From contig CM048848.1 in NCBI GenBank assembly GCA_026545225.1, positions 17,597,353 to 17,661,352 of the forward strand: 64,000 nt of DNA, in the 5' to 3' direction. The stretch comes from Cornus controversa (Eukaryota; Streptophyta; Magnoliopsida; Cornales; Cornaceae). A program made the position numbers and the translations under genes. Positions 4,281 through 41,298 of the stretch are shown here, in pieces. The stretch's first letter is position 1. The number at the start of each line of letters is the position of its first letter. The notes under the pieces were generated by a model, which saw nothing but the letters and a program-made list of their open reading frames with translations, did not search any database and had not been told where the DNA came from.

Positions 4281-4281
<1 letters not shown>

Positions 4282-9100: not shown

Positions 9101-9295
9101 TTTTCATTGTTTTTGCTGTACACCACTTGTTTGCTCTATCAATAAACTCCACACTAAATATATATAATATATATATATATATACACACATATAATAACGC
9201 GTGTATATAAAAAAAAACATATTCACTCCTATATATATATATATATATATATATCTCACCATAGACAGGTATCTCATTTCTCTACATATATATAA

Positions 9296-10496
9296 GGGTA
9301 AAATACACTGACCTCCCCTGAGGTTTGGTTTAATTACACCCAGCATCAAACTATTGAATTTTGTTATAATGACCTCCCTGAGGTTTGCTCCGTTAGACAA
9401 AGACCCCCCTCCGTCCAAAATTCTATTAGTTTTGTCCAAAAATTTGGGGTAATTTACACTAACCTCCCCTAAGGTTTGGTGTAAATTACACTGACCTCCC
9501 CTGAAGTTTGGTCTAATTAATATTTAATATTTAATATAATATTTTAATTTTCATAATATAAATATTAAATATTTATTATATATAATATTTTAATAATATT
9601 ATATATAATATTAAGATGTAATTATTAACATTATATAATGTTAATATAATATATATACATATATAATATTGTATTAACATTATATAATGTTAATAATTAC
9701 ATCTTAATATTATATATATATAATATTATATAATTAAAATATTTATATGTATATATATAATTAAGATGCGCAAAAGTATATTTTAATTATACAATATTAT
9801 ATATATATATATATAAATATTTTAATTTTTATATCAATATAATATTAAGGGTAGAATAGACATTTCACCCATCTTAGGTTTAAATAATATATGTTCCCAA
9901 GGTTGGACTCTTTTTTTAAAAAAGAATATATAAATATTTTTCTATTTTTCTATTATTTTAATGTTTTTTAATGATTTTTTTAAAAAACAAATCGTATAAA
10001 ATAGAAAGACCATTATGCCCTATCTTTTATTCCTTACTTTCTTTTTCATGCCAATCCCTCTCTAAAACTCTCTTCTCCTCTCTCTAATATTCTCTTACCA
10101 ACTCAAATCCTCCATAATCGAAATCTGTAAAGGCCAACAAAATGAAAATGAGGAGAGAGACTTTTTAAATTATTAATGAGGGTATTTTTGCTCATTGCAT
10201 TTTGTTAGAATGAAGGTATTTAGGTAATTTCAGAAGAATTTTCAAGAGGATAACAATGTCTTTACATATGCTTCAAGGATAAAATGAATATTTTGAAAAT
10301 CTAAATTGTCAAGAAAAATCTGATTCAAAAATGCCTTTACCTCTATATTTTTTTATATAAACACTATATAATATTATATAATGTTAATAATTACATCTTA
10401 ATATTATATATAATATTATTAAAATATTATATATAATAAATATTTATATATTTATATTATAAAAATTAAAATATTATATTAAATATTAATTAGGCC

Positions 10497-10527
<31 letters not shown>

Positions 10528-10711
10528 CAAACCTCAGGGGAGGTCAGTGTAAATTACCCTAAATTTTTTGACAAAACTAACAGAATTTTGGACGGAGGGG
10601 GGTCTTTGTCTAACGGAGCAAACCTCAAGAGAAGTCATTGTAACAAAATCCAATAGTTTGATGCCGGGTGTAATTAGGTCAAACCTCAGGGGAGGTCAGT
10701 GTATTTTACCC
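9296..10711. mobile_element. Mutator-type foldback MITE with long terminal inverted repeats
   Basis: The left end gggtaaaatacactgacc and the right end ggtcagtgtattttaccc are inverse complements. The match continues inward through the acctcccctgaggttt words and an AT-rich stretch to about 9650 and 10365, so each arm is roughly 340 bp. Exact 9-bp duplications, tatatataa, flank the element at 9287-9295 and 10712-10720; 9 bp is typical of Mutator-like elements, although an AT-rich site could partly mimic this. The spacer of about 700 bp has no coding sequence, so movement would depend on a transposase elsewhere. It sits inside LTR E1. Confidence 0.85.
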
Positions 10712-10785
10712 TATATATAATATATATGTATCTAAAAATATTTATAATTAAATATAAATAAACCCGCTATATATATACACATGAC

Positions 10786-10828: not shown

Positions 10829-11114
10829 GCATTTTCGAATTTTAATAAATTCGAAAAAAATTAACCCGGTCCAAAAATAATCTGGAATCGATTAAAATAA
10901 CCCGGTGACACATTAGCCGATCGAAACCCGAATGTGGGTTATGTGTGTTGTTGAATACTTGAGAGTTCACGTATCCTACTTAAAGACTCATGGTGAGATT
11001 GTTAAGCTTCTGCTGTATTGTGATGATGATTATTTGGAGTTGAACCTAAGTGTTTCATGTAGGAGACTTAGTGTGAGTTTGTAAAAGCTTCCGCGACAAG
11101 TCATGACCCGGGAG

Positions 11115-11145
11115 TCGAGATGTGACAGTTTGATATCAAATCATG
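11115..11145 (+). other. Relic LTR-end plus primer-binding-like motif inside LTR E2
   Basis: About 310 bp before the true end of E2, gatgtgaca is followed by ttgatatcaaatc, which resembles an LTR end followed by the tRNA-iMet primer site TGGTATCAGAGC (about 8 of 12 positions). E4 has the matching arrangement at 47530-47552. The shared sequence after it (catgagtgtg) shows the two places are homologous. Confidence 0.4.
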
Positions 11146-11440
11146 AGTGTGATTGATGTTGGAATAGTTTATGTGGTTAAGTGAACGGGTTCACACCCGA
11201 AATTCGGGTTTGGATCGGGGGAGTCCTAGCGGTCTGGGTTTCGAGGCCTGATATACCCTAATGATGGACCCACTTTTATGAGTTAAGATATGTACACATA
11301 TATACGTTTTATGTATGTTTATGATTATACTTCTGCAGTTATGAGATTTTGAAATTGATTAAAGGTTTAGATGACGGATCATATTCAATCACTCCCATTT
11401 CCGTCGCTCTTAGCTAGGTGTTGGAAATCGGGGCGTGACA

Positions 11441-12290
11441 AGTCTAGTATATATAGTTAAGCTTTGGTTTTTAAGCGCTTTATCCATTAAAATTGTCGTT
11501 ATTTAGAAATAGGATAAGTGCAAAAAAAAAACCCTGAACTATTGCCCTTTTGCAAATAACTCACTAAACTACAAATTGCCCTCCTGAACTAATAATTTAT
11601 TGCAATTAAGGACATATCTATCACAAGAAGATAATTTTACCCATTCATATTAAAATTTTCATTTCTTATTAAATTATCTTTATTATATTTTCTCTTATCT
11701 ATATATTAATTATACCATTCACTTTAATTTTATTATTGTTATCAATTTATCATAATAATGGAAAAGAATACACAAAGTTGTAACTACCACCAAATTTATT
11801 CATTTTTAAAACTGATTAACTTATTATTAAAATTTTACTATTTATAATAAAACTTATTATACCCAGTTTAAAAAATTTTACAATAAAAAATACTTTCTTT
11901 TTTTCTTACAATTTATATTAATGAAAAATTAAAAAATTACTTAAATAAAAAAATTCTCTCTCATGCTGTATATTCATGAAAAATTAAGAAATTAGTTAAA
12001 TTGTTTTAAAATTTTCTACTTAAGATTTTTATTAAATGAAATAATTTCAATAATTAAAGGTAAATTTATGAAAATTTAATGGAGAATATGTCATCAAAAT
12101 AGTCTGAATTTTTTTCATAATTTATTTTAATAAAAAAAAATGGGCTAAGTGTAATTCAATAAGACAGAGGATTATGGTCTAGGACTGGCTCAATCCTTAG
12201 GCGAATTAGACGGTTGACTCAGGCCTCAAATCTCTCACAACTCGTGCTAGTCCAAATTAGCTCATCTCATCCCCCTCCCCCCCCCCCCCC
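11441..12290. other. AT-rich region, no gene seen
   Basis: No coding sequence is recognisable. The text around 11515-11580 (ccctgaactattgccc) resembles ends of small plant DNA transposons, but I could not find a matching inverted end. A stretch at 12160-12260 resembles another dispersed repeat of the window (53890-54010). A run of about 17 C followed by about 9 A ends near 12300, where LINE copy 1 sequence begins. Confidence 0.5.
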
Positions 12291-12382: not shown

Positions 12383-13747
12383 TGATGTTGTTTTAAAAGT
12401 GTAAAATAACTCGTAAGTGTACGAATCTATTGAAATATAGATTGGTAAGAATGTGGTCGAACCCAAAGGAATGCTTTGAGACAAAAAACTAATACAAATT
12501 TAAATTAATTTAAAACTAATCTAGTTTAAACAAAAGATGGTTGATTTGAGATAAATTAACTAACATGCAAACAAAATAACACTATTGAAATCAAAGAGAT
12601 AAAATAACTAAGGTGTCGGATTCCAACACCATTAAATCCATGAAGCTTCTAATATTCATTTATTAATTTCCAAATTTAGAGTAGCAATCAAGAAATCAAT
12701 CTATTGCTTACTCAAGATTTAATAATAAAGTACTATGAAAAATATATCAAAAAGGTAGATTTTTCTTCGCTTTATTAGTATAAAATTCTAAGCATCTTAT
12801 GAATCCAATTTAATGTAAAACATAAAATTAAAGATTATCACTTTTAAGAAATACAAATCCAAGCTTAGATTAATTATAATACTTTCTAACTACCACATAT
12901 ACATGATATAGATGGTGAAAGAACTATAAAATAATTAATCACAAGAAGCGAAAATCATAAGCATTTAAATCATACACATCAGAATCAATTAATGAACAAA
13001 AGAACTTCACTTCATTAATGGAGGTTTCCTCCTCAACCCTAGTTGAGGAGTTTAGTTACACATGGTAGAAGAAGAAGATAACAAAATAATAAAAGACATA
13101 ATGAAATAAAATAAATAAAACCCGGATTGTCTCCGTCTTCTCTGCTCTGGTGTTCGCTTCTTTTTCTCCCCTCAAAACAGCCTCCAATTCTCCACTTTAT
13201 ACCCAAAGAGAATACATAAAGTCCTCTCGCAGCACTAAACAGGTGGATTTCCTACTGACGTTCGGCCCGAGATTTGACCCAGTAGAAGTTCGATTCATAA
13301 AATTTACGTGAAATACAAAATTTACGTGAAATACAAAAGTGTCCAGAATCGAATTTCGTTCAACATATATAGGAATTGAGTTGAATTGACACTCAGAAAT
13401 ATGAATTTTGGGCCACTTTACAAAATAGGATTAAAACTGGATTAAGCACAGAATTACGCTTCAGACCCGTAACCTCTTTAAGCGGTTATAATTCTCTTGG
13501 ACCACTTTCTTGGGTTATTTTGAGTTAAAATATGGAGTTGAATGGATCCACTTGATGTAAGCTTCATATAACCCTCTTCAATATCTTCTTTAAAAGCCCA
13601 AAAAATCATGTTTTTAACTGAAATAATTATTAAGGCCCTGAAAAGACAGAAAACACAAAAATAGAGTAAAATCACAAATAAACTATCGCTAAAAGAATAA
13701 AATATGCAAATTAAGAGACTAGAATGCATAACATTCAATGCCGATCA
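12383..13747 (-). repeat. 3' LTR of the gag-protease element
   Basis: The plus-strand text starts tgatgttgttttaaaagtg and ends caatgccgatca. It matches 19478-20802 along its length, but has extra sequence around 13125-13175 and lacks a segment present in the other copy near 20265-20300. Confidence 0.92.
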
Positions 13748-13762
13748 CACCCCCAAACTTAC
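13748..13762 (-). other. Polypurine tract
   Basis: Read on the minus strand, agtttgggggtg lies directly before the 3' LTR. This is the expected priming site for plus-strand DNA synthesis and is typical of the Athila/Tat group. Confidence 0.75.
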
Positions 13763-15990
13763 ATATTGCTAGTCCCTTAGCAAAAGAACAAAATAAAACT
13801 AGAACAAAGAAAACTAACTAAACACAAACTAAACTACCCAACTCCTCTTTCGTGGGAGAAACGATTGCATTTAGCATATGCAACAAGCCTTTAAACCCCT
13901 AGGTTCCTCCTATTGGACGAGTTATAGTCTCGTGAGGGTTTCCAGAAATGTTACCCACAAACATTCAAAATTCTTGTTTAAGAATTAATTCAAGAAGAAG
14001 ACTACAATATATAGTTACAAACTTGCATTCAAGAATAACTTCAAATTTTCAAATTCTATAATTCAAAGTAATGGTCCCCATGCATAATTCACATTAACAT
14101 ATCTCAAAGCAACTAACTCTAGCTCGCTCGTGAAAAGTGAACCAGCAATCATCTCATGTGGCATAACCTAGCTCCAAATATATTAAATCACATACCCCTT
14201 CAACTCACTAGCTCCCTTATTGAAATCATACTTCCAAACATGAATACATGACATTTTTCTCTCTTTTTTTATTGCTTTATTGGTTGTGTAATGTCTTGGT
14301 CTATTAAGCTTTCTGAAAGATTCATGTAGCAAGCTTACAGTCAGTGACTCCCAAACCAGATGGCTTTAGGGAACTAGGTGTTAAGACACCCGAAGAACCT
14401 AATAACTCGAATCAATCAGGCTATAAATCAAGACAACCAATGCTCATCTTTTCTCACCCTTTCATTTTTTACGCAAACACTCCGTGCTTCTAGAAGCATA
14501 GAGGCCCAGTTACTAAAAAAAAAGATCAAATTAATTTTCTATTCATCACATATTGTTTTTTTTTCCTTTTTTTTTTCATTGGAGTCATGTGAAACGCATC
14601 ATCGGTACTCATTCTCAAGGGATACCGATTAATATCAAGTATATGTAACCCAACAACTCAAAGCCAAAGTTTATACCCCATAAGATTATGCTAGTATGCC
14701 TATGTATGTGAGGAAACTAAAACCAATCAACCTAAACCATGTCAATGCAAACAATAATTAAAACCACTAATTTAAACCACGGTTTCTCAAAATTTAAAAC
14801 ATACCAAAGAATTGCAAGTTAAGCACCTACATAAAGTATAAATCCCTTGAATAATGTAAAAACATGTTATCTAAAAACAAAACAAAATAAAATAAAAATA
14901 AACTATGAAAATAATGTAACCAAAAAGTCCTAAAAATAAGAAAATGTTCATAAAAATCTCCCCCTATTGAAATACAGCATATAAAAAGGCATCACCTCAC
15001 CTCCAAACTTTAACTATACATTGTCCTCGATGTACACCCAATCGAAGCATAGATAAGCGTTAGAACGATATTACCAGAAAACGGGAGTAGTGGCAAGAAA
15101 ATAGAGAAAACCAGTAGCATAAAGGTAATGAGGCTACAACCTGTCAAAATAACGACTCTACTCCAACAACCAAGTGAAATAACATGGGTGAAAATAAATA
15201 TGAAACAGAAAGTAAAAATAAAAATATATTTCTTTTTTTTTTAAAACCTAATCTTTAGGCGAAAACAACGGGTATTACTCTTCTCCTCATTCTCTGAACT
15301 GGTGGGTCCCAATTTTTCAAGGTGTATATGTGATAAAATATTAATTATCCAGACACCCTAACGTATAGAGTATAAAGGTGTAGCCTTTCTTTATTAAAGT
15401 CATATAGGGTTGAAGCAATCTCGACAGTATTGGGTATCGAAACCAAACTTTAATAAACGAAAATCATCAACTTTATCAATCATATCACAACTTGTAGAAT
15501 TGGTACTACATACATAGTCAAAGAATGTGTGGCTATACTGGACCATTATGAATTTTTTTTCTTTTTTTTTCTTGTTAAAAAAAATTTTTAAATTAAATAT
15601 ACAAACTAAAAGAAGAAAATGATTGACACAAACTAAAAATAAAAAGACGCAAGAGTTATAAATCCTAAAACTAATAATGTACAATGATGATGAAATGAAC
15701 TATAACTCAACCGATACCTTGGCTTTCCATCTTGGCTTTTCACTTTTTGGTGTCTATAAAATTGACTGAATTTAATGAAACATTTACATCCAATAAAGCA
15801 TTCATATATTTACAAGCACTATCAATATCAAAATCACAGCCAAAATTAGTTAGGCTTACATCTAAAGGGTCCTTATAACTAGCATGAGGCTTGCATCTAA
15901 AGGGTCCTTATAACTAGCATGAATAAAAGTATCCTGATCTAGACTCTCTATTAAATTTAACTCACAATTATCCTCAGAGTCTAGTGATTG
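13763..15990 (-). other. Non-coding part of the gag-protease element
   Basis: This stretch lies between the protease and the 3' LTR, where an autonomous relative would carry RT, RNase H and integrase or an env-like frame. No RT (xADD), integrase or other domain is visible in any frame. The frame at 15400-15684 is low-complexity. A 35-bp direct duplication lies at 15853-15922. Confidence 0.65.
15853..15922. repeat. 35-bp tandem duplication
   Basis: Two adjacent 35-bp copies (15853-15887 and 15888-15922), beginning ggcttacatctaaagg and ggcttgcatctaaagg, differ at a single base. Confidence 0.9.
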
Positions 15991-16341
15991 TCAGTTTACG
16001 TTAAAAACATTAAGCTCAATCGACATGTTTCCAAAAGAGAGTTTCACAACACCATTCCTACAGTTGATTAGAGCATTTGAAATGGCTAGGAATGGACGAC
16101 CTAAGATGACAGGAATCTGGCTAGTAGGATTAGCTACAGGTTGAGTATCTAAGACAATAAAGTCTACAGAAAAAAAGAATTTATCAACTTGAATAAGCAC
16201 ATCCTCAATAGCACCACAAGGTATCTTAACTAAGCGATCTGCTAATTGGAGTACCACCTTCGTATGTTTCAACTCACCAAGACCAAGTTGCTCGTAAACA
16301 GAGTAAGGCAATAAGTTGACACTCGCACCCAAGTTAAGCAA
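15991..16341 (-). pseudogene. Retroviral-type aspartic protease, decayed
   Basis: This would process Gag in the virus-like particle. The translated segment holds LNLGASVNLLPYSVYEQLG, later QLADRLVKIPCG, VDFIVLD and PVILGRPFLA, the usual order in plant Ty3/gypsy proteases. The family motif is D-L-G-A-S; here the catalytic aspartate is read as asparagine (codon aac), a G-to-A change that should abolish activity. A TAA stop separates it from gag in the same frame (16342-16344). No RT follows. The next part of a normal polyprotein is absent, so the segment ends near its natural boundary. Confidence 0.85.
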
Positions 16342-16344
16342 AGC

Positions 16345-18275
16345 TTATTCAATTTTTTGATCACCTATGGTACATGAAATCGTAGGACATCCAGGATCCT
16401 TAAATTTAGGTGGAGTACGATGTTGGATGATTGAGCTAACATGCTCAGTGAGGAAGGCTTTCTTGTGCACATTAGAGCCACATCTGACCGTACACAAGTC
16501 TTTCAAAAATTTTGCATAATAGGGGACTTGTTGAATTGCATCAAGAAATGAAATATTAATTTTGACTTGTTTAAACACTTCCATAACCTCATTATAGTGA
16601 TTCCCCTTCTTAGGCTTTTGAAGTCTTTGAGGATATGGTGCAGTAGGAACAAAGTTCCTAACTGGTGGACTTATTGGAGATGGTGGGTCAAGACTAGTGA
16701 CTAGAATTTTTGACTCAACTACAGATGTAGTTTTATCCTCCCTTCCTAAACCACGAACATGGTCCTTTTCAATTTTCTCATTATGTATAGGCATTTGGAC
16801 TCCATTATTAACTTGTCTACCTAGCCTTAGGGTTTTGATAGACTGAACCTGCTTATATGAACTAGAAGTGGACTGGTCACTAATATGAAACTGGCACTTT
16901 GGGTTAGAGACAGGTTGACTAGGAAACTTTTCTTTCTCCCTCTCTCCTACAACAGTGGCTAATTGAACTATTTGAGTTTCTAACTTAGAAATCGACTGAC
17001 TAGTCTGTTGCATGAACTGTTGGAGAGTATCCTCCAAATTTGGTCTCTGTTGAGGTGGGGGAACATACGAAGGGGCATTTTGGAACATGGAAGAATATGA
17101 AAATTATAGTTACCCTTAGGGTTGCATAGGTTGCACCCTTTGGTTGTTCCAATTTTGGTCTTGCCTCCAAGAAAAATTAGAGTGGTTACTCCAATTAGGA
17201 TTGTATGTGTCAGAATAGGGGCTATCAAATGGTTTCTTAAATAAATTGAGTCCATTGGCTTGTTCGGCTATACATTTATGAAAAGATGCAATAGATGGAC
17301 AAGTTTTAGCTGTATGAGAAAAACTCTCACATAATTGACACACCTCACTAACTGTATGAACAAAAGAATTACTTCCTTTACTCATCTCTATAGCCTCGAC
17401 TTTCTTAGTTAGAATAGCTATCCTCGCACTCAAATCAGTCTCCTCTTGGACCTCGTAAATTCCTCCCTTTTTTGGGTTCTAAGAGTATTGATAGAGAACT
17501 CCTTTCAACCCTCCCTGAGTACTCCCATTGTTGAGAGTTTTCTGACAACGCATCAAGAAATTTTCATGCTTCATCCTCATTCTTAGACATAAATTCTATC
17601 CCACCTCGTGACTCAATTAGTTGACGATTATAGGGTGACAACCCCTCGTAAAAGAATTGAACTAATTGCCACTTGGCAAAACCATGATCGGGACACTTAA
17701 GAAGGAGATCATTAAATTTTTTCCAACACATGTAAAACTGCTCACCCTCTTTTTGAGTAAATTGCATGATATTTCAGCGAAGGGCATTAGTTTTGTGCAT
17801 GGGAAAGAACTTGGTAAGGAATTTGGTGCATAACCCATCCATGAATTGACGGACGCAGGTTCTAGTGAGTATAACCAAGATTTTGCTTTCTCTTTCAAAG
17901 AGAATAGAAATGACCGCAATTTAGTTGACTTTCAGAGATATTTTAAAATTTTAGTGTGGAACAAATCTCTAGAAATTCCTTGACATGGAGGTATGGGTCA
18001 TCAGAGCTAAAACCTCAAAAAGTGGGCAGTAAATTAATTACCACCGCCCGTATCTCAAAATGTCCATGTTGGGTAGTAGGTAACACAATGCAAGATGGGT
18101 TTGTAATCTGCACAGGGGTGTAGTAGTCCTTAAGGAATTTAGTTTCAACATGATCTGCCATCTTCAGCAAAGAAGGATCTCTAACACTATAATTTTTCAC
18201 ACCCTTTTAAAAGGTTCTCTCAATCTCAAGATCTAATGGAAGCAACTCTGGATTTAGAGATCGACGACCTAACAT
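16345..18275 (-). pseudogene. gag polyprotein, frameshifted
   Basis: Gag would form the retrotransposon particle. The best start is the ATG at 18275 (MLGRRSLNPELLPLDLEIE), followed after one stop by the DPSLLKMADH region. The capsid-like part includes KEGEQFYMCWKKFNDLLLKC and FFYEGLSPYNRQLIESRGG, matching the retrotransposon-gag domain of the Athila/Tat group. A CCHC knuckle, CQLCESFSHTAKTC, lies at about 17300-17345. The C-terminal part (16345-17088) is proline-rich and ends before the protease. At least three frame changes and several stops break the frame. Family assignment rests on these motifs and the tRNA-Asp primer site. Confidence 0.85.
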
Positions 18276-19453
18276 ACGCTAGAAAAACTTAATGAAATGG
18301 ATCACTAAGAACAATGTAATGTAAGATGACCTAATGCAAAAGAAAGAGAAAAAAATAATGGACTCCTAAAATTACTCACAAAAACACCAACCAAATAAAC
18401 AAGCAAATTTTTTTTTTTTTGAAATTTAATTCAAAGTTAGAGATTTCTATTTTTTTTTCCTAAAGAACTATTTGGATCACTTCCAAAATAATTCTTACAT
18501 AATTAGACAGCTTCTACTCCCTATCGGAGAAACTAGAGGATTACCAGTTAAGCCCCACCAATAATACAACCAGGAAAGTTTCTAATATAGATTGGAGGGG
18601 TCACAAACTGTCCCACTTAAAACCCAATCTCCTCAGAACTTTCCTAGACATTGTGAAGTTGGAAGATGCTCACTGGAGTAACCAAAAGTTAACTTTGTCC
18701 AAGAGGGTTCTACAAACTATGTGAATTCCTATGGCCAACTTGATTTTAAATTTAAACTAAATTTGGCTTGGGATAGACAAATGCAATAGAATTTTTAACC
18801 TAGGTGGGCAAGGAATTGGTGATGAAATCCAATCCTTATCTTGTTGGGGTTCGTGACCTTATTAGAATTTTAATGCAAAAATACTAAATTAAAATGCACA
18901 AACAAAACACACCATAAAAATAAAAATAAAATAAAAAGTGAATGAGTGTGTGGTCTTTCTTCTTTTTTTTTAAACTAGAGAGAAAAAAAAATAAAACAAA
19001 GAAAATAAAATAAGATATAAAATAAACCTAAAGAAAGTGTGACCCTAGGGTTATTTCTAAGTTATTCTATCCTAGAGTTCTCATGCAAAAGTTATCGACC
19101 TAAAACAAAAATCTATGTTTTCCTAATCTAAGACAAGAAAAATATAAATAAACGAAAAAAATGTACTTACTTGGATTCCAAAGTAGTGCCCAAGAAAATG
19201 CGAAAAAGACAATTTTCAACAATACCACCTATAGAATTCAAGAAGTATCAGGTAAATCATTAATAATAAAATAAAACTAAAACTAAACTAAAAGAAATAA
19301 AAATAAAATTAATAAAACTAAAACTAAAACTAAACTATAATAGTAAAGAATTTTTTTTTTTATAATAATAAAAAAAGAAAAGAAAAAAAAACTAAATTAT
19401 AACTAGTAGAAGAATTATATCAATCGAAATTTGATTAGTTTCTTATTTGCGAT
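18276..19453 (-). other. Untranslated leader of the gag-protease element
   Basis: About 1.2 kb lies between the primer site and gag. It is A-rich with homopolymer runs and no coding sequence. Packaging signals would be expected here but cannot be identified by eye. Confidence 0.6.
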
Positions 19454-19471
19454 TCCCTAGCAACGATGCCA
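19454..19471 (-). other. Primer-binding site, tRNA-Asp type
   Basis: On the minus strand TGGCATCGTTGCTAGGGA lies 6 nt after the 5' LTR. The plant tRNA-Asp complement is TGGCGCCGTTGCCGGGGA. The four differences are all C-to-T or G-to-A transitions, three of them at CpG positions, as expected for decay of methylated DNA. Confidence 0.85.
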
Positions 19472-19477
19472 AAAACT

Positions 19478-20802
19478 TGATGTTGTTTTAAAAGTGTAAA
19501 ATAACTCGCAAGTGTACGAATCTATTGAAATATAGATCAGCAAGAACGAGATCGAACCCAAGCGAATGCTTGAGACGAAAAACTAATACAAATTTAAATT
19601 AATTTAAAACTAATCTAGTTTAAACAAAAGATGGTTGATTTGAAATAAATTAACTAACATGCAAACAAAATAACACTATTGAAATCAAAGAGATAAAATA
19701 ACTAAGGTGTCGGATTCCACCACCATTAAATCCATGAAACTTCTAATATTCATTTATTAATTCCCAAATTTAGAGTAGCAATCAAGAAATCAATCTATTG
19801 CTTACTTAAGATTTAACAATAAAGTACTATGAAAAATATATCAAAAAGGTAGATTTTTCTTCGCTTTATTAGTATAAAATTCTAAGCATCTTATGAATCC
19901 AATTTAATGTAAAACATAAAATTAAAGATTATCACTTTTAAGAAATACAAATCCAAGCTTAGATTAATTATAATACTTTCTAACTACCACATATACATGA
20001 TATAGATGGTGAAAGAACTATAAAATAATTAATCACAAGAAGCGAAAATCATAAGCATTTAAATCATACACATCAGAATCAATTAATGAACAAAAAGAAC
20101 TTCACTTAATTAATGGACTCCTCAACCCTAGTTGAGGAGTTTAGTTACACATGGTAGAAGAAGAAGATAACAAAATAATAAAAGACATAATGAAATAAAA
20201 TAAATAAAACCCGACTTCTTTTCTCCCCTCAAAACAGCCTCCAATTCCCCAAGAGAATACATAAAGTCCTAATCCAATTAGGAGATAATTAAGGTTTTTC
20301 CGTAGCACTAAACAAGTAGATTTCCTACTGACGTTCGGCCCACGTTTTGACCTAATAGAAGTTCGATTCATGAAATTTACGTGAAATATAAAAGTGTCCA
20401 TAATCTAATTTCGTTCAATTTACATGAGAATTAAGTCGAATTGATGCTCAAAAATATGACTTTTGGGCCACTTTACAAAACAGGATTAAAACTGGATTAA
20501 GCGCAGAATTGGGCTTCAGGACCGTAACCTCCTTAAGCAGTTATAATTCTCTTGGACCACTTCCTTGGGTTATTTTGAGTTAAAATATGGAGTTGAATGG
20601 ATCCACTTAATGTAGGCTTCACATAACCCGCTTGAATGTCTTCTTTAAAAGCCCAAAAAATCATGGTTTTAACTGAAATAATCATTCAGGCCCTAAAAAG
20701 ACAGAAAACACAAAAATAGAATAAAATCACAAATAAACTATCGTTAAGAGAATAAAATATGCAAATTAAGAGGCTAGAATGTATAACATTCAATGTCGAT
20801 CA
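19478..20802 (-). repeat. 5' LTR of the gag-protease element
   Basis: The plus-strand text starts tgatgttgttttaaaagtg and ends caatgtcgatca. In sense it begins TGATCGACATTG and ends ACAACATCA. The partner LTR is at 12383-13747. Confidence 0.92.
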
Positions 20803-22035
20803 CTAAACATCTCAAACCAGTCGTCTGCCATCATGGTGATAGCACTGGGCGACCATTACCTGTCTATCTATCATAATTCTAATAAGTCTTGAGTAGATAC
20901 TCTCAAACGATCTCTCGCCACACCAATAGTAATTCTAGAATCTTACAAACTGTCCATCCCTTACCTTAAAATAAATGTGCTTGGAGAACTCATTCTAGCC
21001 ATTCACAATGTACCTCTATACCCTAACCCCAACTGGTGACCTCAACATCAACAAGCATCATCCCTCTCTATCCTCTCCGTATTTAAGACATAGAACTCGC
21101 CTCCAAATCTTGTCTCTCTCCATCCCAAACCACCAAAGCCACTTACCCAATAAAACTTTATTGAAAAAGGTTTAATTTTCACACCCCTAGCCCTCTCCTC
21201 TGAATGGATCAATTAATCTACTCCTATCTTACCAGATGATATTTAGTCTCCTCACCCATACCACCCCATAGAAATTTCTCACGTAATCGCTCTGGCCTCC
21301 TCAGCACAGAAGCTGATAATAAAAATAAAGACATTAAGTAGGTAGGAAAGCTCGAAAATGTGCTCTTCATCAAAGTTAATCTACCCCCTTTCGATAAATA
21401 TTGTTTCTTCTACCAGTTAACCGCATCTCAAATCATTGCACAACAGGATCCCAAGAAGAGGATCTCCGCACCTTAATGTCTAGTGGAAGTCCTAAATAAG
21501 TCAAGGAAAAAGAGCCCACTCTATATCCCAAGATATTTGCCAAATGGTCAATCTCCTCCACCTCCCCTATAGGAGCAATCTCATTTTTTTCCAAAGTTCA
21601 CCTTCAGACCCGAGACTTCCTGGAGACAAAGCAATGTCCCTCTTAGGTACCTCAACTGCCTCATCTCTGCATCATAAAACACAATAATGCCGTTTGCAAA
21701 AAGAAATTGAGAAACCTCCATTTGATAAGCTGGATTCCTCCCCATATGGAAACCTCTGTAGTAGCCCACCTTATAAGCTCTCTTCATCAGTCTACTGAAA
21801 GCCTCCATCACAATCATGAAGGGGAAGGGGCTAATTGATCCCCCTGTCTTAACCCTCTCGAGTTGCCAAAGAAACCAGAAGGAACGACATTAATTGGCAT
21901 TAAGAATCTCACTGTGGAGATACAAAATTTAATCTAACCCCTCTATCTCTCCCCAAACCCCATCCTCTCGAGAAGATAAGTCAAGAAGTCCCAGCTCACG
22001 TGGTCATACATTTTCTCCACATCAAGCTTACAAAC
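20803..22035 (-). pseudogene. LINE copy 1, piece 3 (RT palm to downstream)
   Basis: Minus-strand translation gives, in order, RT motif A ([16 protein letters not shown], completed across the insertion at 22036-27921), motif B ([14 protein letters not shown]) and the motif C region (EVSQFLFANGIIVF). Motif C should read FADD; here it reads FANG, so both catalytic aspartates are lost. Downstream, FSKHIYFKVRDGQFVRF matches the segment before zf-RVT in copy 2. Several stops and frame changes are present. The piece is bounded on the left by the LTR element 12383-20802 and on the right by the hAT composite. Confidence 0.8.
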
Positions 22036-22542
22036 TAGGGGTGCACAAAAAATCCGTCAATCCATGAATCCAATCTAGTCCGATCCGATCGGATTGGATT
22101 AGATTGGACGACTAACAAATCGATTGCAGATTTAGAAAATAAAAATCTGTAGACCACAAATCGGATTACGGATTGAGGGTTCAAAAATTCGATCTGATTC
22201 ATGAATTCGATCCATAGCAATCCGTTAGTATTTATAATATTTATTATATATATATAGATATATATATATATATATAATAATATAATATAATTTTTAATTA
22301 TAATATTATAATATCTTATATCTTTTAGGCTAAATTTTTTTTATTAGGCCCTAGTTAAAAAAATAATTATATTGAGTTATTTCAATTAAGTCCAATCCAT
22401 CAATCCAATTCGATCTAATCCGTTATTTCACGAATCAGATCAGATCAAATTGAGTCTTTCTCGCGAATCGGATCGAATTACATATTCACCAATCCGTAGA
22501 CCGCAGACTAATCCGATCCAATCTGATCCATGATCACCCGTA
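22036..22542 (+). mobile_element. hAT-type MITE, left copy
   Basis: The 507-bp element starts taggggtgcacaaaaaatcc and ends gatcacccgta. Its subterminal parts are full of gatccgatcc-like words and the middle is AT-rich. The left flank is ttacaaac and the right flank gccacgat, which do not match each other. The copy at 27471-27921 has the same orientation and the same two flanks in exchanged order. Confidence 0.88.
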
Positions 22543-22787
22543 GCCACGATTGACAACTATTGCCATGCATTGTTATTTGAGGAAACGCTTCCAAAAGTTA
22601 GGGTCTTTTTCTTTGGGTATGCATGTTGATTCTACTAGCATATATCATATGCTAGTTGCCATATATATATAAGTTATCAATTTATATAGGGAAGCGATAT
22701 TGCATTCCCTTTTTCTACTTTGCACTCTTATTTTTAAAAAAATAATATTTATAACCTTAACTTCACAAGTGAATATTTTTTTTCAAA

Positions 22788-23825
22788 TTAAACAACTACC
22801 CTTTCTAATATCAATTGTTTGAATTTTTGTTCACTTGTTCTATTCAACTCCACAAACGATCCCGACATAGATTCTTTAATGCGTTCACAATAATATGGGA
22901 CCATTACGTAACCATCCTCAATGAACTGTTTTGTAATCTCCTTTTTCCTCCATATTTGCATGTAATTCAATTGAATGTTGAATGTCTTCATCAAATCATT
23001 ACCCCTATCTCTTATTTGATACTACGGTGATTCTACAAACTTTTTCACCATTAGTTTACCTAAATGCTTTGGACGTATGTTTAACTTCATACTAGCTATG
23101 TCTTGTGCATTATGTGAATGCACGTTTTTGAAATGTTTCACCCTTACTACATGACAGTTCCCATCACAAACGGCCGTTACTTTTTATGGACATCCTTCAA
23201 TTGCACATACTATCCTATAGTGACTAAAGTGTAGTCACTTATCTCCAAAGTAGTTCCTCAAAGCAAACTCATTCACAAAAATTTTGAAAGCCTCTAGGCT
23301 TTCAAACAATTAACTTGACCTTTCAAGTTTTTCAATTTCCACAGTAGAAATGGAGCTCACGCGGTGATCCTCTTCAAAATTTTGCGAAGAAGCCCCCTCA
23401 CCAAATAGGTGTGTATTGTTGTTCATGTAGTTACGCAAATGCTAGAATGAATCAGTTGAGGCCCTATGATTTAATTTAATAATCTTCAATATTTAAAATA
23501 GAGAATACCACAAACATTACATTACTAATGTCTCATAAATATTTGTATAAATATTGTACATGGAACTAATAGGTTGAGATGGTAAGACCGCCTCCAAAAT
23601 GATAGATGCATCGGTCACATAAATGTTAGTTGTATCGCCATTGAGTCTAAACATTGTCTTGAAAATACCTTCGTTATACAGATGCACTAGATCAATTTTT
23701 TTAAAGCATACTGGTATGTTGTAACTGTTTGCCATCCAAATCAATTGCATGTAATCATAATAAGTGTCGTTGTGGAGCCACCGCGATAGGTAATTTTGTG
23801 ACACATGGTATGATTTCACCACCAA
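22788..23825 (-). pseudogene. MULE transposase remnant
   Basis: Minus-strand translation shows FKIFVNEFALRNYFGDK, RIVCAIEGCP, VTAVCDGNCHVVRVKHFKN, then MQIWRKKEI and YYCERIKESMSGSFVEL. This is the usual order of the N-terminal DNA-binding part and the start of the transposase domain in plant MuDR-like proteins. The catalytic DDE part that should follow (toward 22550) is absent. Stops break the frame. The segment 23517-23825 may be the upstream part of the same protein, with less certainty. It lies inside the hAT composite and was carried along with it. Confidence 0.65.
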
Positions 23826-23899
23826 AGTGGCATATGCAAACTAACTCCTTCACTAAATGATCCAACATTCTTACAGTGCTATAATAAATGTAAATGTTA

Positions 23900-24481
23900 T
23901 GTTGGCTTAAATTCCTATTGTGATTAGGTTTTTATTATAGAGTTGTATCTTATTAGATAATTTCTCAGTAGGCAAGTCTTGGTCTCAAGGAAGGAAAGTA
24001 TTTGTTAGGCAAGTCTTGGACTCTAAGGAATTGTAATCCTTGTCCACTAAGGAATTGAATTTTGGGCTCTATAAATAGTTACATATGTTATAGGTTGAGA
24101 TAAGTGAAAACAAAAAAGGCAATACTCTCATTGTATTTGAGAAGTTACTTTCATTATTTTGAGAGGGCAACTCTTGCGTAGAGGTAATACTCTCATTGTT
24201 ATTGAGAGGACACTTAGAGAGATAATTCTTGTTTAGAATTTGCAATTCCCTTTTGAGTTAGATTTAGTGTACAAGGTTAAATGGGAGCGTACTCTTGATA
24301 CAATTCTTCAACTTGTATTGTTACAATCTATATAGTGAAATCATATTCTTCGTGGACGTAGGCTTGTTTAAACGAACCACGTATATTTCGTAGTGTGTTC
24401 TTGTAAATTTCTTCGTGCTTGTTTACTTATCATCACATTGTAATATTTGGTGATTTGTGATTGGGGGCTTGTTTCTTAACA
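23900..24481 (+). repeat. Ty1/copia-type LTR (5' LTR of a truncated element)
   Basis: About 582 bp start tgttggcttaaattcc and end gtttcttaaca. It contains ctctataaatag (near 24067-24078), a TATA box. A primer site for tRNA-iMet follows three bases later. Only the first codons of a gag-like frame (near 24590-24630, MAGNIVTQYKV) survive before the sequence changes to unrelated DNA, so the rest of the element is missing. Confidence 0.75.
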
Positions 24482-24484
24482 AAC

Positions 24485-24496
24485 TGGTATTAGAGC
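24485..24496 (+). other. Primer-binding site, tRNA-iMet type
   Basis: TGGTATTAGAGC matches the canonical TGGTATCAGAGC except for one C-to-T transition, and follows the LTR end by 3 bp. Confidence 0.85.
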
Positions 24497-24799
24497 TTTG
24501 AGGTACACACAAAATGTTTGATAAAAATCTTGTCTAGATTTTTCTTTATAACATGGGAGTTGTTCGTCTTGAGTACTTATGATAATCATGGCTGGTAATA
24601 TTGTCACACAATACAAGGTGGATAGAGTAAGGGAGGGTGAAGGACATCCTAGTTCAACAAGGCTTAGCGCAGGAGTTGAATGGATTATCCATTGTGGAGT
24701 TGAAATAGCCATGTCTATGTAATTGGTTCTTGCAATGGTTTGATTTGTCATGTTGTTGATCGATTCAACGTCATGCCAAAACCAACCAGTACTCCTCTC

Positions 24800-25600
24800 C
24801 ACGTCTGTGAAACTATTATTATGGGTTTGCTTTTGACTCCTACGACCATAATTACAAGGTAATTTTGGGCTAAGATACATAATTCTTCTAAACGGGTGCG
24901 CTCTCGCGCTCACAGGAAGAAATTGAATTTTTTTTGCGGCTCCCGCTTTATATGACTTAGGTTTTGGGAACTGAAATTATTGTTGATGCCTCTAAAAATA
25001 TCAGATTCCATATGTTTAGTCTTAGACACAATTCTTGGAGAAGAATACAAGACCTGAGTTGAAGTCATTTAGGGAGATTCTCAATGTCTAGTAATGCAAT
25101 TTTTTTGAATGGAGCTCTTCATTGGCTACTGATACCCAGAGTCATTGGTTTTGAACCACTTCACAGGATAACTATTTCTTTTGATTTATCAAAGGAGGTA
25201 TTTAGTGAGATGTCCTTAGATATTCAGGGCTTGTTTTACATACTGGGGGCTTTTTGAAGAATGTTTGTATGCTCTGTCTCTCTCGTATAATGCTAGTAGG
25301 TGTTTTGTTGAGGTGTGGTTGATGAAGGAATATGGCATGAAGGCATCTTGGACTAAGTTTATCACCATCCCATGTAACGTGGGCACTTCTTCACACTATT
25401 ATTCTTGAGGAATGGTGAACTTCTACTAAAGAGTGATAGAGTTGGTCAAACAACATTAGAATCGTACAATACTATAAAATAAAAAAAAGATTTATGAAAG
25501 TTTGTAATTGTCTCCGTTCTTCTAAAGCAATTTTGTATGTGGAGAGTCTGGTTTCACCCAACAACATTGATGGGAATGACAAGCGACTGCAAGCACTGGG
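24800..25600 (+). pseudogene. F-box-associated (FBA) domain pseudogene
   Basis: Plus-strand translation in shifting frames gives YGFAFDSYDHNYKVILG, then VDASKNIRFHMFSLRHNSWR, FLNGALHWLLIPRVIG, ITISFDLSKEVFSEMSL, VEVWLMKEYGMKASWTKF and ILYVESLVSP. This is the characteristic order of the F-box-associated domain of plant F-box substrate adaptors in SCF ubiquitin ligases. The N-terminal F-box itself is not seen. Stops and at least two frame changes show it is dead. It lies inside the hAT composite, downstream of an abrupt change of sequence near 24630, and is probably a genomic fragment that moved with it. Confidence 0.75.
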
Positions 25601-27470
25601 CCAATTGCAGTCAAATTATTTATGATTATGTTGATATGGTTGATCTTCATTTAATTGTTCTTCCTTCTTTAGCAATGGATGAATGTTGAATCTTGAATGT
25701 CAAACGTAGAAAGAAAAACTGACTGTGTTGGACATTATACCTAGAGACTGATGTGCAACTAGTGTGCTAACTTTCTTTTTCTTTTTCTTTTTCTTTTTCT
25801 TTTTTCCCCTGTGAATGGTATGCTGAAAATCTATTTTGGTTATATATTGAAAGTTGACAGAAACAACTAAATTGTTTGACCATTTCTTTGTGGTAAGAGG
25901 GGTTGCTTTGATTTTCTTGACAGAAATTTGTGCATTTGTTTCTTGTCTTTTTTTTTTTTTGGGAGGTTTTCATTTTCTTTTGATTATAAGTTAAATTCGT
26001 TTTCTTCTGTCTTCCACCAACACCGATCTTTAGATGGTGAGCATCAAATCGCAACTCACCCTATAATTAGAATGGTACGTTTCAATTTGAATAGGAGAAC
26101 ATCTTTGTTAACAAAGATTCGAATAGAACTTTGATTCTTTTCTTTTTCTTTTTCTTTTTCTTTTTCTTAGTTTATTTACTCAATTTTTTTTTCAATACTT
26201 TGATTTGAAAAATCAGTTTTTCTTTTTTCTTAGTTTATAAAGACACTCTTTGGATTTTACCAAGTACATTAGTTCATCCACCACTAGTCCAAGGTTCAAC
26301 CCTTCAAATAATTCTTTTCCTTTTTTGAGATTGAGATACTTGAAGCACAGCGTGATCTCCTATTAGAAGAATAGTTGAATGTTGAACCAGGAATTTTCTT
26401 ATTTTCTTTTGTTATTGTAGTTGACACCTTTTAATATAGAATTCATAGAAGTTGAATTCTTGTTACTAGGATAACTTATAACTTAGAGAGAGCATCCATA
26501 TATTTTGCATTACTGGAAGCCTCTCATATAATTTCACATATGTTGTCTTTTCAATAAATTTAACTGGATTTTATGTGTTTTAATTTGCATTTACAATTTT
26601 TTTTAATATGTACTTTGATGCTTCAAGGTTGCGGTTTCAAGAATTCTCTTGTTCATAATCATTTTAGTTAAAATGGACAATTTGTTAAATCAAAGGATTT
26701 TTTTTATTTCTTTTCAATTCTTACTATCAAATTTTTAACCCAAAAAAAAAAGAAAGGGTTGCCATATATTCTTATGTGGTGTGATTAAGAACAAAACTTT
26801 GGACGACATCATTAAATATTGGTTTCAAATTGAGAAGCTTGAGTTATCCATTTATCAATATTTTTTTATTTGAATTTTGAATGGTGCAATAAACTTAAAT
26901 TGGCTTCCCCTATTATTTTCTATTTGAGGTTGAACTCACATATTTTATAACTGGCACTAAAAATTTACAATAAGAAAGATGCACTTTGTTTGATTTCTTT
27001 GGTAAAAGGGCATTTTTTTTTTTTTTTGGTTTAGGGAGACAATTAAGGTTTGATTATTTTTTAGACAATCATTTGTTTCAAAGTTAAGGTAGTCCCCATG
27101 TCGAATAATAAGTAGTAAAGAAAAGGAGGAAGGATGAGCTATAAATAGAGTTTTAGAGGATTAGAGCTATGAGTTGTAAATTGTAATACAAGGCTCGCAT
27201 ATTTTTTTGGGATTAAATTATTTATGTGATCATACATGGTGGGTAGTTGAACAAGTGATAAACATGACACATTTGTAACCTTTACGACTTACAAAAGAGA
27301 ATAACAAAAATTATTATATAATAACATAACGTTTACATACCAAGTATGAATATAACAATTTCCCTCTTTTTCTTTTGGTTTTTTTTTTTATAAAAAAAAT
27401 GTTGTCTTCTGGGATACAAATGTCAAAGATAAATGTACGCCATTACATATGGCTCGTGTGTAGCCACGAT
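25601..27470. other. AT-rich interior of the composite, no gene seen
   Basis: Two (CTTTTT)n-type microsatellites lie at about 25769-25805 and 26135-26168. The rest is AT-rich, and short frames such as 25767-26054 come from homopolymer tracts. The right edge carries gccacgat (27463-27470), a second copy of the word at 22543-22550. Confidence 0.6.
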
Positions 27471-27921
27471 TAGGGGTGCAAAAAAAATCCGTCAATCCGT
27501 GGATCCGATCCAATCCATGCAGATTGGACTGGATTGGATGACTAATGGATCGATTGCGAATTTAGAAAATAAGAATTCGTAGACCACGGATCGGATTACG
27601 GATTGGGGGTCAGAAATCCGATCTGATCTGTGGCAATCCGTTAAAATTTATAATATTTATTATATATATATATATAATAATATCTTATAACTTTTAATAA
27701 TAATATTATAATATCTTATATCTTTTAGGCTATTTTTTTTTTTTTTGGACCCTAGTTAAAAAATAATTATATTGGGTTGTTTAGATTAAGCCTGATCCGT
27801 CAATCCGATCCGATCCAATCTGTTATTTCATGGATCGGATTGCATATTCACCAATCCGTAAATCGCATATCAAATTAGAATTATGCCTAATCCGATCCAA
27901 TCCAATCTATGATCACCCCTA
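27471..27921 (+). mobile_element. hAT-type MITE, right copy
   Basis: The 451-bp element starts taggggtgcaaaaaaaatcc and ends gatcacccct followed by a. It lies in the same orientation as the copy at 22036-22542, with shared internal text and several indels. Its left flank is gccacgat and its right flank ttacaaac. Confidence 0.88.
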
Positions 27922-27929
27922 TTACAAAC

Positions 27930-28976
27930 CACCCTTAGATCACCAATGCAAGATCAGTCATCCACACACTCACTAGCCAAACTGAATCCAGAATCTGACG
28001 ACTTTTGACAAAGGCATTTTGCGATTCAAAAATGATTCCCTCCATCACTTCCTTCAATCTTATCCCTAGGATTTTTGCAATGATCTTCTATACTCCCCAC
28101 CAAACTAATGAGCCTAAAATCTCAAATGTCATCGGGCCCTCCCTTCTTCGGAATCAAAGTAATGAAGGTAACATTCATAGACTTCTCAAACTTACTGTGT
28201 AAATGGAAAGCATGAATAGTTGCCAACAAATCCCTCTTCACTACCTCCTAATTATGATGAAAAACTGCCATAGAAAAGCCATCTGGACTGGGGGTTTTGT
28301 CTTCTTGGCAACACTTTAAAGCAAATGTCACCTCCTCTCCAAGTGATCCCTATCCTCCGCAAAAATCATGTCAAACTCCAAACCCCTAGAAGAGGTCTCC
28401 AATTCGCAGTCTCCTTATACAATCGCTGATTAAATAAAGTCACACCTCTCACCACCTCTTCCTTTTTATTCAACACAGTTCCATCTACTTTGATTCTCCC
28501 TATGTGGTTACCCTTCCTATGAGCATTGGCTATACTATGAAACAGTCTCGTATTCCTGTCCCCTCCTCTTTTAAGCACAAAGCTCAGGATTTTTATATCC
28601 ATGAAATCTCTTCCATTACAGCAATCTCCTCAAATTTTGTCTTACAATCCTCCCTTTTTGATCTTTCCTCCTCCCCCAAACCCTCCAAGCTCTCCTTCCT
28701 ATCCAAATCAGCTATCTCTTCCATAATCCTGTTCTTCCTCCACTCAAGATTACCAAACATCTCCTTATTCCACTTCTTTAGGTCCTCCTTCAATCTACGA
28801 AGTTTCCCCACAAGCATAAAACTAAGGTTGCCCAAGACCTCATAACCAATTCACCATCATTGCATCATCTCCTTAAACCCTTCTGCCCGAAGCCACATAT
28901 TCTCGAACTTAAAAGGTGTTTTTCTCTTCCTCAAGCCCCCACAATCTAGTAACAACGAAACATGATCTAAAGTTAG
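27930..28976 (-). pseudogene. LINE copy 1, piece 2 (endonuclease end to RT fingers)
   Basis: The minus strand encodes the end of the endonuclease (LDHVSLLLDCGGL, then KTPFKFENMWLRAEGFKEMM), the linker (LRRLKEDLKKWNKEMFGNLE; RNTRLFHSIANAHRKGNHIG) and the first RT blocks (FITLIPKKGG, DFRLISLVGS, IIAKILGIRLKEVM, SQNAFVKSRQILDSV). Stops and frame changes are frequent. On the left it continues into piece 3 after removal of the hAT composite. On the right it continues into piece 1 at 35777 after removal of the copia LTR. The SDH motif of the endonuclease reads LDH. Confidence 0.85.
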
Positions 28977-38358: not shown

Positions 38359-40257
38359 TCACACCCGAGAATCGTCCCTCCCGCTATGCACAACTTGGAG
38401 ATAAAATAACTCCAAAAAGTGAATGGCATCCTTGGTCTCCTTAGTCCTGAAGATTTCTCGTGAAACCAATATCCTAAATTGTTCTCCCACTCTCAAGATG
38501 ATAGTAGTTAGATACAAAAACATGATGGTTCTGTGAAATCCGATAGAGTCTAGGAAATAATTGAGCCAGATGCCTATCACCACACCACCATTCCTCCCAA
38601 AAATGAATGTCTCCGCCATTCCCGACCCTGAATCTAATGTATTTGGAAAACTCTAGCCACCCCTTTCGAATTGACTTCCAAACACCTACACCCCCAGGAG
38701 TCCTTACCTCCCTAGAGTGCCACCCTCCCCTCTCTTCCCCATACCTAATAAAGATGAGTCTCCTCCAGAGCCTCTGCCTCTCTCCCCCAAACCTCCACAA
38801 CCACTTCCAGAGAAGCCCCTTATTGAAAGCTTCCAAACTCCTTATGCCCAACTCTCCTAATTTGACTGGTTTGCAAACCTAATCTCATCTGATAAGGTGT
38901 TATTTAAATTCATCACCTAGACCCACCCCCCCCCCAAAAAAATTGCACTACAACCTCTCAATTACTGAGATAGGAATTTGGAATAGGAAAAGAAAATAGG
39001 TAGGGAAACAAAAAAAAGTGTTTTTAATCAAAGTAACCTTACCTCCTTTGGACAAGTACTGTTTCTTCTATCTCGCAAGTCTTCTCTCAAACCTCTCCAC
39101 TACTCGGTCCCATCTTCCCACCCTTCTGGCAGGGTCCCCCAATGGTAGACCTAAGTATGAGATTAAGAGAGAACTAACACCACAGTCCAGAATATCTACC
39201 AAGATAGCAATATTAGGCACATCTCTCACCATAATAGTATCATCTGCAAATAGTAAATGAGAGACCTCTATCTGACTGGCAGCGTCTCTGCCCACCCTGA
39301 ATCCCCTAATGAATTCTAGATCAACTGCTTTCCTCATCAACCTATTGAGGCCCTCCATCACGATAAGAAACAAGAAGGGGGATAGTGGTCCCTACCAGAG
39401 CCCCCGAGAGCTACTAAAAAACTCGATGGAGATCCATTCATAAGCACTGAGAAACAAACTATGGATAAATAGAACTTGATCTACCTCCTCCACCTTTCCC
39501 CGAAACCCATCCTTTCTAGCAAATATAGTGTGAAGCTCCAACTTACATGGTTAAAAGCCTTCTCAATGTTCAGCTTGCACAAAATCCCTGAAACCCGCTT
39601 CTCATTCTAGAATCTACGCACTCACTAGCAATGAGAGCATAATCTAAGATCTGATGCCCTCCTACAAAGGCATTCTAGGGTCGATATGAGGCCATCCATA
39701 ACGTCCCTCAATCTTGTGGCTAGGACTTTAGTTATAAGTTTGTAGATGTACCCCACCAAACTAATAGGTCTAAAATCTAGAAAATCAATAGCACTACCCT
39801 AATTCGGAATAAGGGCGATGAAGGTGGCATTTAAGTTTTTCTCAAATCGATAATGGGAATAGAATGCATAAAAAGTGCCCATCACCTCTCCCCTAACCAC
39901 CTCCCAATTTTCCAAAAGAAAACTTGATGTAAAACCATCTCACCCTGGCGCTTTGTCTGCTTTGCAGCTCTTCAAAGCCAACAAAACTTCTTCCTCACTA
40001 AAAGGCCTCTCCAACCCATCTAGACCCTCATATGGTAAATGATCAAATGGTATCCCATCAAGCTGAGGTCTTTAGCTAAACTCCTCCATGTATAGTCTCT
40101 GGTAAAATGAAGCCACTCCTATTCCCACCTCTTCCCCTCTGCTAAGAACCTCCCTGTCAACTATGATCCTCCCAATATAGTTTCTTCTCTGATGAGCATT
40201 AGCAAGCCTATGAAAGAATCTTGAATTCTTGTCGGGCTCTTTTAACCAAAGAGCCAT
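38359..40257 (-). pseudogene. LINE copy 2 reverse transcriptase and zf-RVT region
   Basis: Linker and RT segments appear in shifting frames: PDKNSRFFHRLANAHQRRNY (near 40235-40175), then MEGLNRLMRKAVDLEFIRG, EVSHLLFADDTIMV (motif C with both aspartates) and SYLGLPLGDPARRVGRWD, ending near 39068. The downstream part is RSLEAFNKGLLWKWLWRFG and FSKYIRFRVGNGGDIHFWEE, leading toward the zinc-binding region. Unlike copy 1, motif C is intact, but stops and frame changes elsewhere make the protein non-functional. Confidence 0.82.
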
Positions 40258-40599
40258 AGATTTTTGACACCACCAAATCTCCTATGAAATAGCTATCTCG
40301 TAAATCTCAGTCTGGCACTCCTCTCTCCTCTTCCCCTCTTCCCTGAGACCTCTAGAATCCTCCACGTGATCCAACTCAGTGATCTTTGACATCGCCCTAT
40401 TTTTCCTCTATTCCAAGTTCCCAAACACCTCCCTATTCCATGTTTTGATATTCTCTTTAAGCACACGAAGTTTGCCAGCTAGGATAAAACTTCGGTTACC
40501 AAACACCTCGTATCCTCCCACCAACCCCTCACTCTCTCCTTGAAGTCCTCAGCCCGTGACTATATATTCTCAAACTTGAATAGAGTCCTCCTCTATGTC

Positions 40600-41298
40600 A
40601 TGCCCCCACAATCAAGAACTAATATAATGTGGTCAGAGGTAATTCTAGTCAGAGCTGCCAGCACCACATCTGGGAATTTTTCCTCCCAATTGTCAGATAT
40701 AAGAAACCTATCCAACTGTGACAGGGAGGGGCCTCCATCCCACTGGTCCATGTGAAAGTAGCACCCTCTACAAGCAAATCAATTAGATGATGCTCATCAA
40801 TGAATCCTAAAAATTGCTCTTTAAACGGTGTTGGCGTACCCTTTATAGATCTCTCTATTAGGTTCTAATTGTATTGAAGTCTCTCCTAATACACCATGGA
40901 AGAGGCCATCTCCTCCTCACTGAACTGAGCTCTTCTCACAACAAGTGTCTCTTACCATCCTAAATTGGACCGTAAATACCAAAAAGACCTAGTGGAATCT
41001 GTTTTCCTCTAAAGAAAAAGTGCAAAAAAATAAGAACCTCCCCACCCAAACATCCACCTTAGGCACCCACCCATTACCCCACATCACAAGGAACCTAAGG
41101 CATCTAGCATTTCTCATGCCACAAATATTCCCCCCCCCCCCGACAAGCTTCTAACCACATTATTCATGATAGATGCCAATTTTGTTTCTGCAAGCATACC
41201 ACATGAGCATTCCATTTCCTCACAGCCATCTTCACCAACTTCTTTTTGTCTGGGTTATTGAGGCCCCAGACATTCAATGAAATGATTTGTAGCTTCAT
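40600..41298 (-). pseudogene. LINE copy 2 endonuclease
   Basis: From an ATG at 41298 the minus strand reads MKLQIISLNVWGLNNPDKKK, then LVKMAVRKWNAHVVCLQ and, after a frame change, ETKLASIMNNVVRSLS. Both the asparagine (LNVWG) and the glutamate (ETKL) of the active site are visible, in different frames. A run of G on the minus strand (C run near 41131-41141) marks further decay. Confidence 0.8.

Follow-up and report, generated by a model that had tools for sequence, protein, structure and literature searches.

A MITE-bordered insertion with exchanged donor flanks in a LINE of Cornus controversa

A 64,000-nucleotide stretch of the Cornus controversa genome (NCBI GenBank assembly GCA_026545225.1, contig CM048848.1, positions 17,597,353 to 17,661,352 of the forward strand; here called the window, with coordinates counted from its first letter and features on the plus strand unless the minus strand is given) contains a long interspersed nuclear element (LINE) interrupted by a composite insertion. 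The insertion is bordered by two copies of a miniature inverted-repeat transposable element (MITE), and over 22028-27929 its order is ttacaaac-MITE1-gccacgat-interior-gccacgat-MITE2-ttacaaac. This exchanged-flank structure was confirmed in the window, recurs in a duplicate block on a second contig (C1; the window's own contig is C4) and has its counterpart on a third contig (C5), where the donor flanks stand in their original order and the MITE is absent. We slightly favour movement of the composite as one unit by a hAT transposase.

The outer word ttacaaac was found at 22028-22035 and 27922-27929, and the inner word gccacgat to the right of MITE1 (22543-22550) and to the left of MITE2 (27463-27470). 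MITE1 (22036-22542), a hAT-type element with the ends TAGGGGTG...CACCCGTA, is preceded by aagc-TTACAAAC and followed by GCCACGAT-tgac, while MITE2 (27471-27921) is preceded by tgta-GCCACGAT and followed by TTACAAAC-cacc. On both strands of the window, GCCACGAT occurred just at 22543 and 27463, and the chance of two exact 8-base words is ∼4^-16. The two MITEs are direct copies with 84.8% identity over 434 aligned columns, and they differ by 48 transitions, 18 transversions and several insertions or deletions.

A sequence-only reading of the window had taken ttacaaac for the target duplication of a MITE in the LINE. When the flanks were joined over a single TTACAAAC, LINE copy 1 aligned to LINE copy 2, also in the window, with zero gap at the join and its reading frame continued across it, in what we take to be reverse transcriptase motif A; the assignment of the word is borne out. 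The left part of LINE copy 1, which covers the reverse transcriptase (21777-22027, minus strand), aligned over 21777-22004 to positions 39327-39551 of LINE copy 2, and the right part (27930-28949, minus strand) aligned over 27960-28949 to 39612-40616. Stop codons near the join identify LINE copy 1 as a decayed copy. The moved DNA is bounded by the MITE ends, as had also been proposed, and the 8-base duplication encloses the entire composite, so that two transposon copies delimit a unit with the insertion duplication around the whole, as in a macrotransposon.

The MITE is a short, repeated element with the terminal inverted repeats TAGGGGTG/CACCCCTA; 8-base target duplications are linked to the hAT superfamily. 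A search of the plant's own 771.7-Mb genome with MITE1 returned 855 first-look candidates, the best 40 of which were scored. For a control of the flanks, 38 other copies were fetched, 30 with recognisable ends (453-528 bases in length) and 8 without clean ends. As the ends were picked for the fewest flank mismatches, the counts of near-identity are generous: the 8-base flanks were identical in 10 of the 30 copies, had at most two mismatches in 23 and had three or six mismatches in 6. Among these controls an exchanged word pair, with seven mismatches, was found at the C1 counterpart alone. One MITE-end pattern had zero matches in viral or prokaryote contigs.

The duplicate on C1 (C1:40058000-40098000) follows the order of the window through several collinear blocks, among them 20802-24684, 24681-26728 and 58670-62288, and it has the same LINE site and the same order of the interior. 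Its MITE, at C1:40072972, lies between TTACAAAC (left) and GCCATGAT (right); the outer word and, in all, the 35 bases preceding the MITE are identical to those in the window. Everything from 26729 onward, including MITE2 and the right half of the LINE, is missing from the C1 block. Both blocks found already carry the composite, which by this collinearity is older than the duplication of C4 and C1, and since the structure is present on C1 too, it is not an assembly fluke. At 24678-24684 the C1 block has ∼9.4 kb of additional interior, in which another long terminal repeat and the 5′ part of an F-box gene are found. The junction of copia-like and F-box sequence in the window is therefore a later deletion, and its candidacy as the original fusion point of the composite was rejected on this ground. 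Substitutions between the window and the C1 block were uneven, with 3.0% over 58670-62288, 8.7% over 2982-6119 and 7.5% over 10916-12229, which makes these blocks candidates for gene conversion or selection. On the LINE side, the C1 match starts near 20802, at the right edge of a repeat (19478-20803) that forms a direct pair with 12383-13748; the two are ∼1.35 kb long, 89% alike and ∼7.1 kb apart, and are possibly the terminal repeats of one element.

The inner word gccacgat had been assigned to another locus, in which the sequence left of 27470 should run directly into the sequence right of 22543. Such a locus was found on the minus strand of C5, near C5:28626141, where the site reads TGTGTA-GCCACAAT-TGACAAG with one gccacaat and no MITE. 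There, homology to 24681-27006 and 27003-27471 is followed directly by homology to 22544-22645. The left flank (24681-27462 in the window) matched C5 at 85% over 24681-27006 and 73% over 27003-27471 in alignments with gaps (Basic Local Alignment Search Tool), corresponding to substitutions of 6.6% over 24681-26728 and 10.8% over 27000-27470. The right flank (22551-22645, adjoining gccacaat on C5) matched at 89% over 22544-22645; past 22645 the alignment was poor, and 34 of 146 columns differed over 22543-22690. As the C5 order spans a single gccacaat, the donor flanks are exchanged in the composite, and its interior consists of the two flanks of a donor in switched order, the right one being only ∼0.1 kb long. 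With 25700-27470 as query, matches longer than 360 bases among the best 40 of 60 candidates were confined to C4, C1 and C5, and shorter F-box relatives lay mostly at 38.3-43.9 Mb of C5, with one on C10. Loci with gccaYRat directly before a MITE start, allowing at most one mismatch, numbered 96; among the 8 that were compared, including all 6 exact matches, the flank was present only at the window's own locus, and no MITE-bearing donor was found. A donor with the interior in its present linear order and different flanks at its two ends was not encountered in any of the searches run either. To unrelated coincidence or assembly error we give almost no credence, in view of the second copy on C1, the donor order on C5 and the chance of the words.

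Beside the empty donor site, C5 carries three identical tandem units of 53 bases (∼28625982-28626140; positions 9483-9641 of locus L048) that start one base inside the site. We weighed an excision scar as the source of this triplication and did not build on it, since the units are identical and too alike for the age of the transfer; it is possibly the scar of a later break repair.

The C5 order is what an extrachromosomal circle would have carried, and the sequence-only reading had favoured such a circle, bearing gccacgat-MITE-gccacgat with its flanks, that integrated by homologous recombination with a MITE which the LINE already carried. The exchanged donor order behind that proposal stands, and the circle and the recombination have become optional. 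The model yields the observed order exactly, but it presupposes a circle as well as a MITE already in the LINE, with an ectopic crossover confined to ∼500 bases, and it offers no reason for a donor without a MITE; we regard it as unlikely. The same final order would be reached from a linear donor, with the circle unnecessary, if a break in the LINE-borne MITE had been repaired at both ends by copying from the donor MITE outward into the flank on either side and the newly made ends had then been joined. Two-ended repair of this kind tolerates very unequal tracts (∼0.1 kb and ∼3 kb), but it too requires a MITE in the LINE and leaves the MITE-free donor without a reason, and the join was not found; it appears improbable.

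The MITE-free donor on C5 leans towards transposition. Composite insertions arising by alternative transposition and re-replication are known from maize Ac/fAc (PMC4270019). We put it at a little better than an even chance that the MITE-bordered composite, a macrotransposon, was moved as a unit by hAT transposase along one of two routes, taken jointly. In both, a hAT-type MITE would have sat at gccacgat in the C5-type locus, downstream of the F-box pseudogene, and the donor flanks, exchanged as MITE-right flank ... left flank-MITE, would have come to lie between two MITE copies. Along the first route, opposite ends of two sister copies would have been used in one alternative transposition during replication, both flanks would have been re-replicated and the broken ends fused, as in a maize Ac composite insertion. 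Sister copies of a single MITE that supplied opposite ends would account for a donor word repeated at the two inner MITE ends and for a rejoined, empty donor. Along the second route, which had been named earlier as transposition out of a tandem array, the donor locus would first have doubled in tandem, and a cut-and-paste reaction at the outer MITE ends would then have mobilised the unit, giving the same composite and a single MITE-free donor. The composite would have entered the LINE with the 8-base duplication ttacaaac, leaving one donor site free of the MITE; the LINE region would afterwards have been duplicated on C4 and C1, and the window copy would have lost ∼9.4 kb of interior. We infer that the agent was transposase rather than homologous recombination, that both MITEs derive from one element and that a MITE was once present at the C5 site. 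The first route taken by itself, in which a single MITE acting through opposite sister-copy ends re-replicated both flanks and delivered them, exchanged, to another chromosome in one reaction that left the donor empty, is given a low probability.

Jukes-Cantor distances on sites outside cytosine-guanine dinucleotides (non-CpG sites) were used to ask whether the two MITEs were identical at the departure of the interior from C5. In the F-box flank the distances were 0.043 between window and C1, 0.057 between window and C5, and 0.059 between C1 and C5; for the MITEs they were 0.114 between MITE1 and the C1 MITE, 0.150 between MITE1 and MITE2, and 0.144 between the C1 MITE and MITE2. With C1 and C5 as clock and identity at departure, a MITE1-MITE2 distance of 0.155 (95% 0.104-0.232) was predicted and 0.147 was observed, an excess of -0.007 (95% -0.087 to +0.054). 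This leaves no divergence from before the event and speaks against the circle model, though up to 0.054 lies within error. In a tree of 40 copies, MITE2 stood beside MITE1 and the C1 MITE with a bootstrap of 96 (95/91 with copy L017). MITE2 was also closer to MITE1 and the C1 MITE than a star fit expects; 42 and 16 of 777 pairs had lower residuals. The family is star-like, and copies of a recent burst may have been alike enough for the recombination that the circle model needs. Intact target words beside a MITE divergence of 15% had a probability of 0.07 and were at first considered a sign of two different MITEs; the C1/C5 clock fitted one element, but polarised changes did not.

Several observations weigh against transposition of a composite built from one element. 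The first concern the MITEs. The Shimodaira-Hasegawa-like approximate likelihood ratio test (SH-aLRT) gave the trio of MITE1, the C1 MITE and MITE2 a value of only 8, so that the grouping is not settled; the pairs MITE1-L012, MITE1-L017 and MITE2-L017 had lower star residuals than MITE1-MITE2; and by raw distance L063, L019 and others are nearer to MITE2 than MITE1 is. Polarisation by the family consensus placed 16 non-CpG changes, absent from MITE2, on the MITE1 lineage before the duplication, compared with 12 private to MITE2. The same stem carries a 17-base deletion, and 11 of its 16 changes also occur in at least 4 other copies. A clock starting from identical MITEs expects ∼1/5 to 1/3 of the changes on this stem, and the observed share had P = 2e-5 at an event/duplication age ratio of 1.35 and P = 0.008 at a ratio of 2; with rare changes only, P ranged from 0.02 to 0.45 at these ratios. 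The indications for identity at birth are thus mixed, the total distance fitting and the polarised changes not, and two different MITEs may have been present at the origin. The other observations concern the donor. Only ∼0.1 kb of right flank matches C5, compared with ∼3 kb of left flank, and the right tract would have been short or later cut back. The next 2.2 kb of C5 to the right of the site matched nothing in the composite, either on C4 or on C1; this query otherwise matched itself and short repeats, mostly one beside the break in homology, and a C5 stretch farther out matched only itself, apart from repeats. On C1 and C5, the left flank begins with part of the repetitive element that adjoins the right flank. 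The fusion junction of the two flanks must lie within positions ∼15541-25691 of the C1 block (C1:40073540-40083690); nothing in this interior matches either side of the 19.8 kb examined on C5, and the junction was not found there. C5 may never have held the MITE at all, as the site has no ordinary footprint and the 53-base units look too young. Finally, re-replication tracts in the maize cases are long (4.8-18.9 kb) and their targets lie on the same chromosome, 13 kb to 1.7 Mb from the donor (PMC4270019), whereas here donor and target are on different chromosomes, the right tract is very short and the event is ancient.

Two different MITEs are allowed by a further explanation, reversed-ends transposition, and an origin of MITE1 and MITE2 from two members of the family, of which there are signs, would also fit the circle model. 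Either the inner ends of a MITE-X-MITE in the LINE would have re-entered its own excised, circularised interior at gccacgat, or a macrotransposon in the donor, with gccacgat as its outer word, would have given rise to a composite insertion. Transposase alone would then explain both inner words, and circles of the spacer have been reported for alternative transposition (PMC12312487). No trace was seen of the earlier composite that this explanation presupposes, and the one unoccupied word at the C5 site counts against it; like two-ended repair, we rate it as improbable.

The cargo was described earlier as 4.9 kb of genome, which is a loose figure: C5-type DNA was demonstrated for 22543-22645 and 24681-27470, and the middle is transposon sequence. 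With this and the optional circle, the earlier interpretation as a whole is partly supported. The F-box sequence (24681-25560) lost its 5′ part in the deletion at 24678-24684, and its top five protein matches are Cornus florida proteins, the nearest being F-box proteins. By inspection, an insertion of ∼30-34 codons and stop codons relative to the Cornus florida gene are shared by the window, C1 and C5, so that the gene was probably a pseudogene before the transfer. The segment 22646-23896 (minus strand) is mostly repetitive, with broken reading frames that resemble Mutator by eye only; a search with 22551-23550 gave 740 first-look candidates, the best 40 of which were scored, and Pfam found no family in two of its frames. 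Of the four frames submitted to Pfam in all, three had no family and the fourth only sub-threshold matches. The segment 23897-24677 is presumably a copia-like long terminal repeat with the start of the inner part, a name that rests on our reading of a primer site and a gag start. The transposon-rich middle may have come with the composite or arrived later, and repetitive 22646-23896 may postdate the transfer.

Elsewhere in the window, positions 2-2989 hold a diverged tandem repeat array with copies ∼735 and ∼224 bases apart, and positions 9287-10719 hold a long inverted repeat that looks palindromic or foldback, with arms of ∼370 bases at 91% identity and ∼0.7 kb between them; another comparison resolved it into two pairs of arms.

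Among the literature matches listed, titles and abstract openings revealed no MITE-bordered case. The alternative transpositions and composite insertions described in the two sources cited here come from selected maize Ac alleles and from somatic Arabidopsis VANDAL elements (PMC4270019, PMC12312487). Here, an old natural case can be read with its product, its duplicate on C1 and its donor order on C5 in one genome. Any assembly can be searched for its signature, an outer word a and an inner word b that each occur twice, so that the frequency with which non-coding MITEs move host DNA becomes testable, as does the question of transposase or recombination as the agent.

The maize Ac/fAc composite insertions resemble the present structure in the transposon termini at both ends, the outer 8-base duplication and an interior formed by the two donor flanks in switched positions, a product termed macrotransposon (PMC4270019). 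They differ in arising from two elements, Ac and fAc, with reversed ends at the donor, whereas here a small MITE is involved and one donor word stands on both inner sides. In the macrotransposons of hAT elements (Huang and Dooner 2008, as cited in PMC4270019), two elements likewise form the termini of a single large unit that transposes. We would expect the two inner words of an ordinary macrotransposon to differ, whereas both are the same here. In Arabidopsis, alternative transposition of VANDAL21, for which excised spacer circles were detected by polymerase chain reaction, also rearranges host DNA through two nearby transposon ends, but there the elements are head-to-head and not MITEs, and the events are somatic and recent (PMC12312487). 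The kind of event is thus known from maize, and its MITE-bordered interchromosomal form is a variant; if a single element was at work, it would be the maize composite insertion in a natural form that involves one element and two chromosomes.

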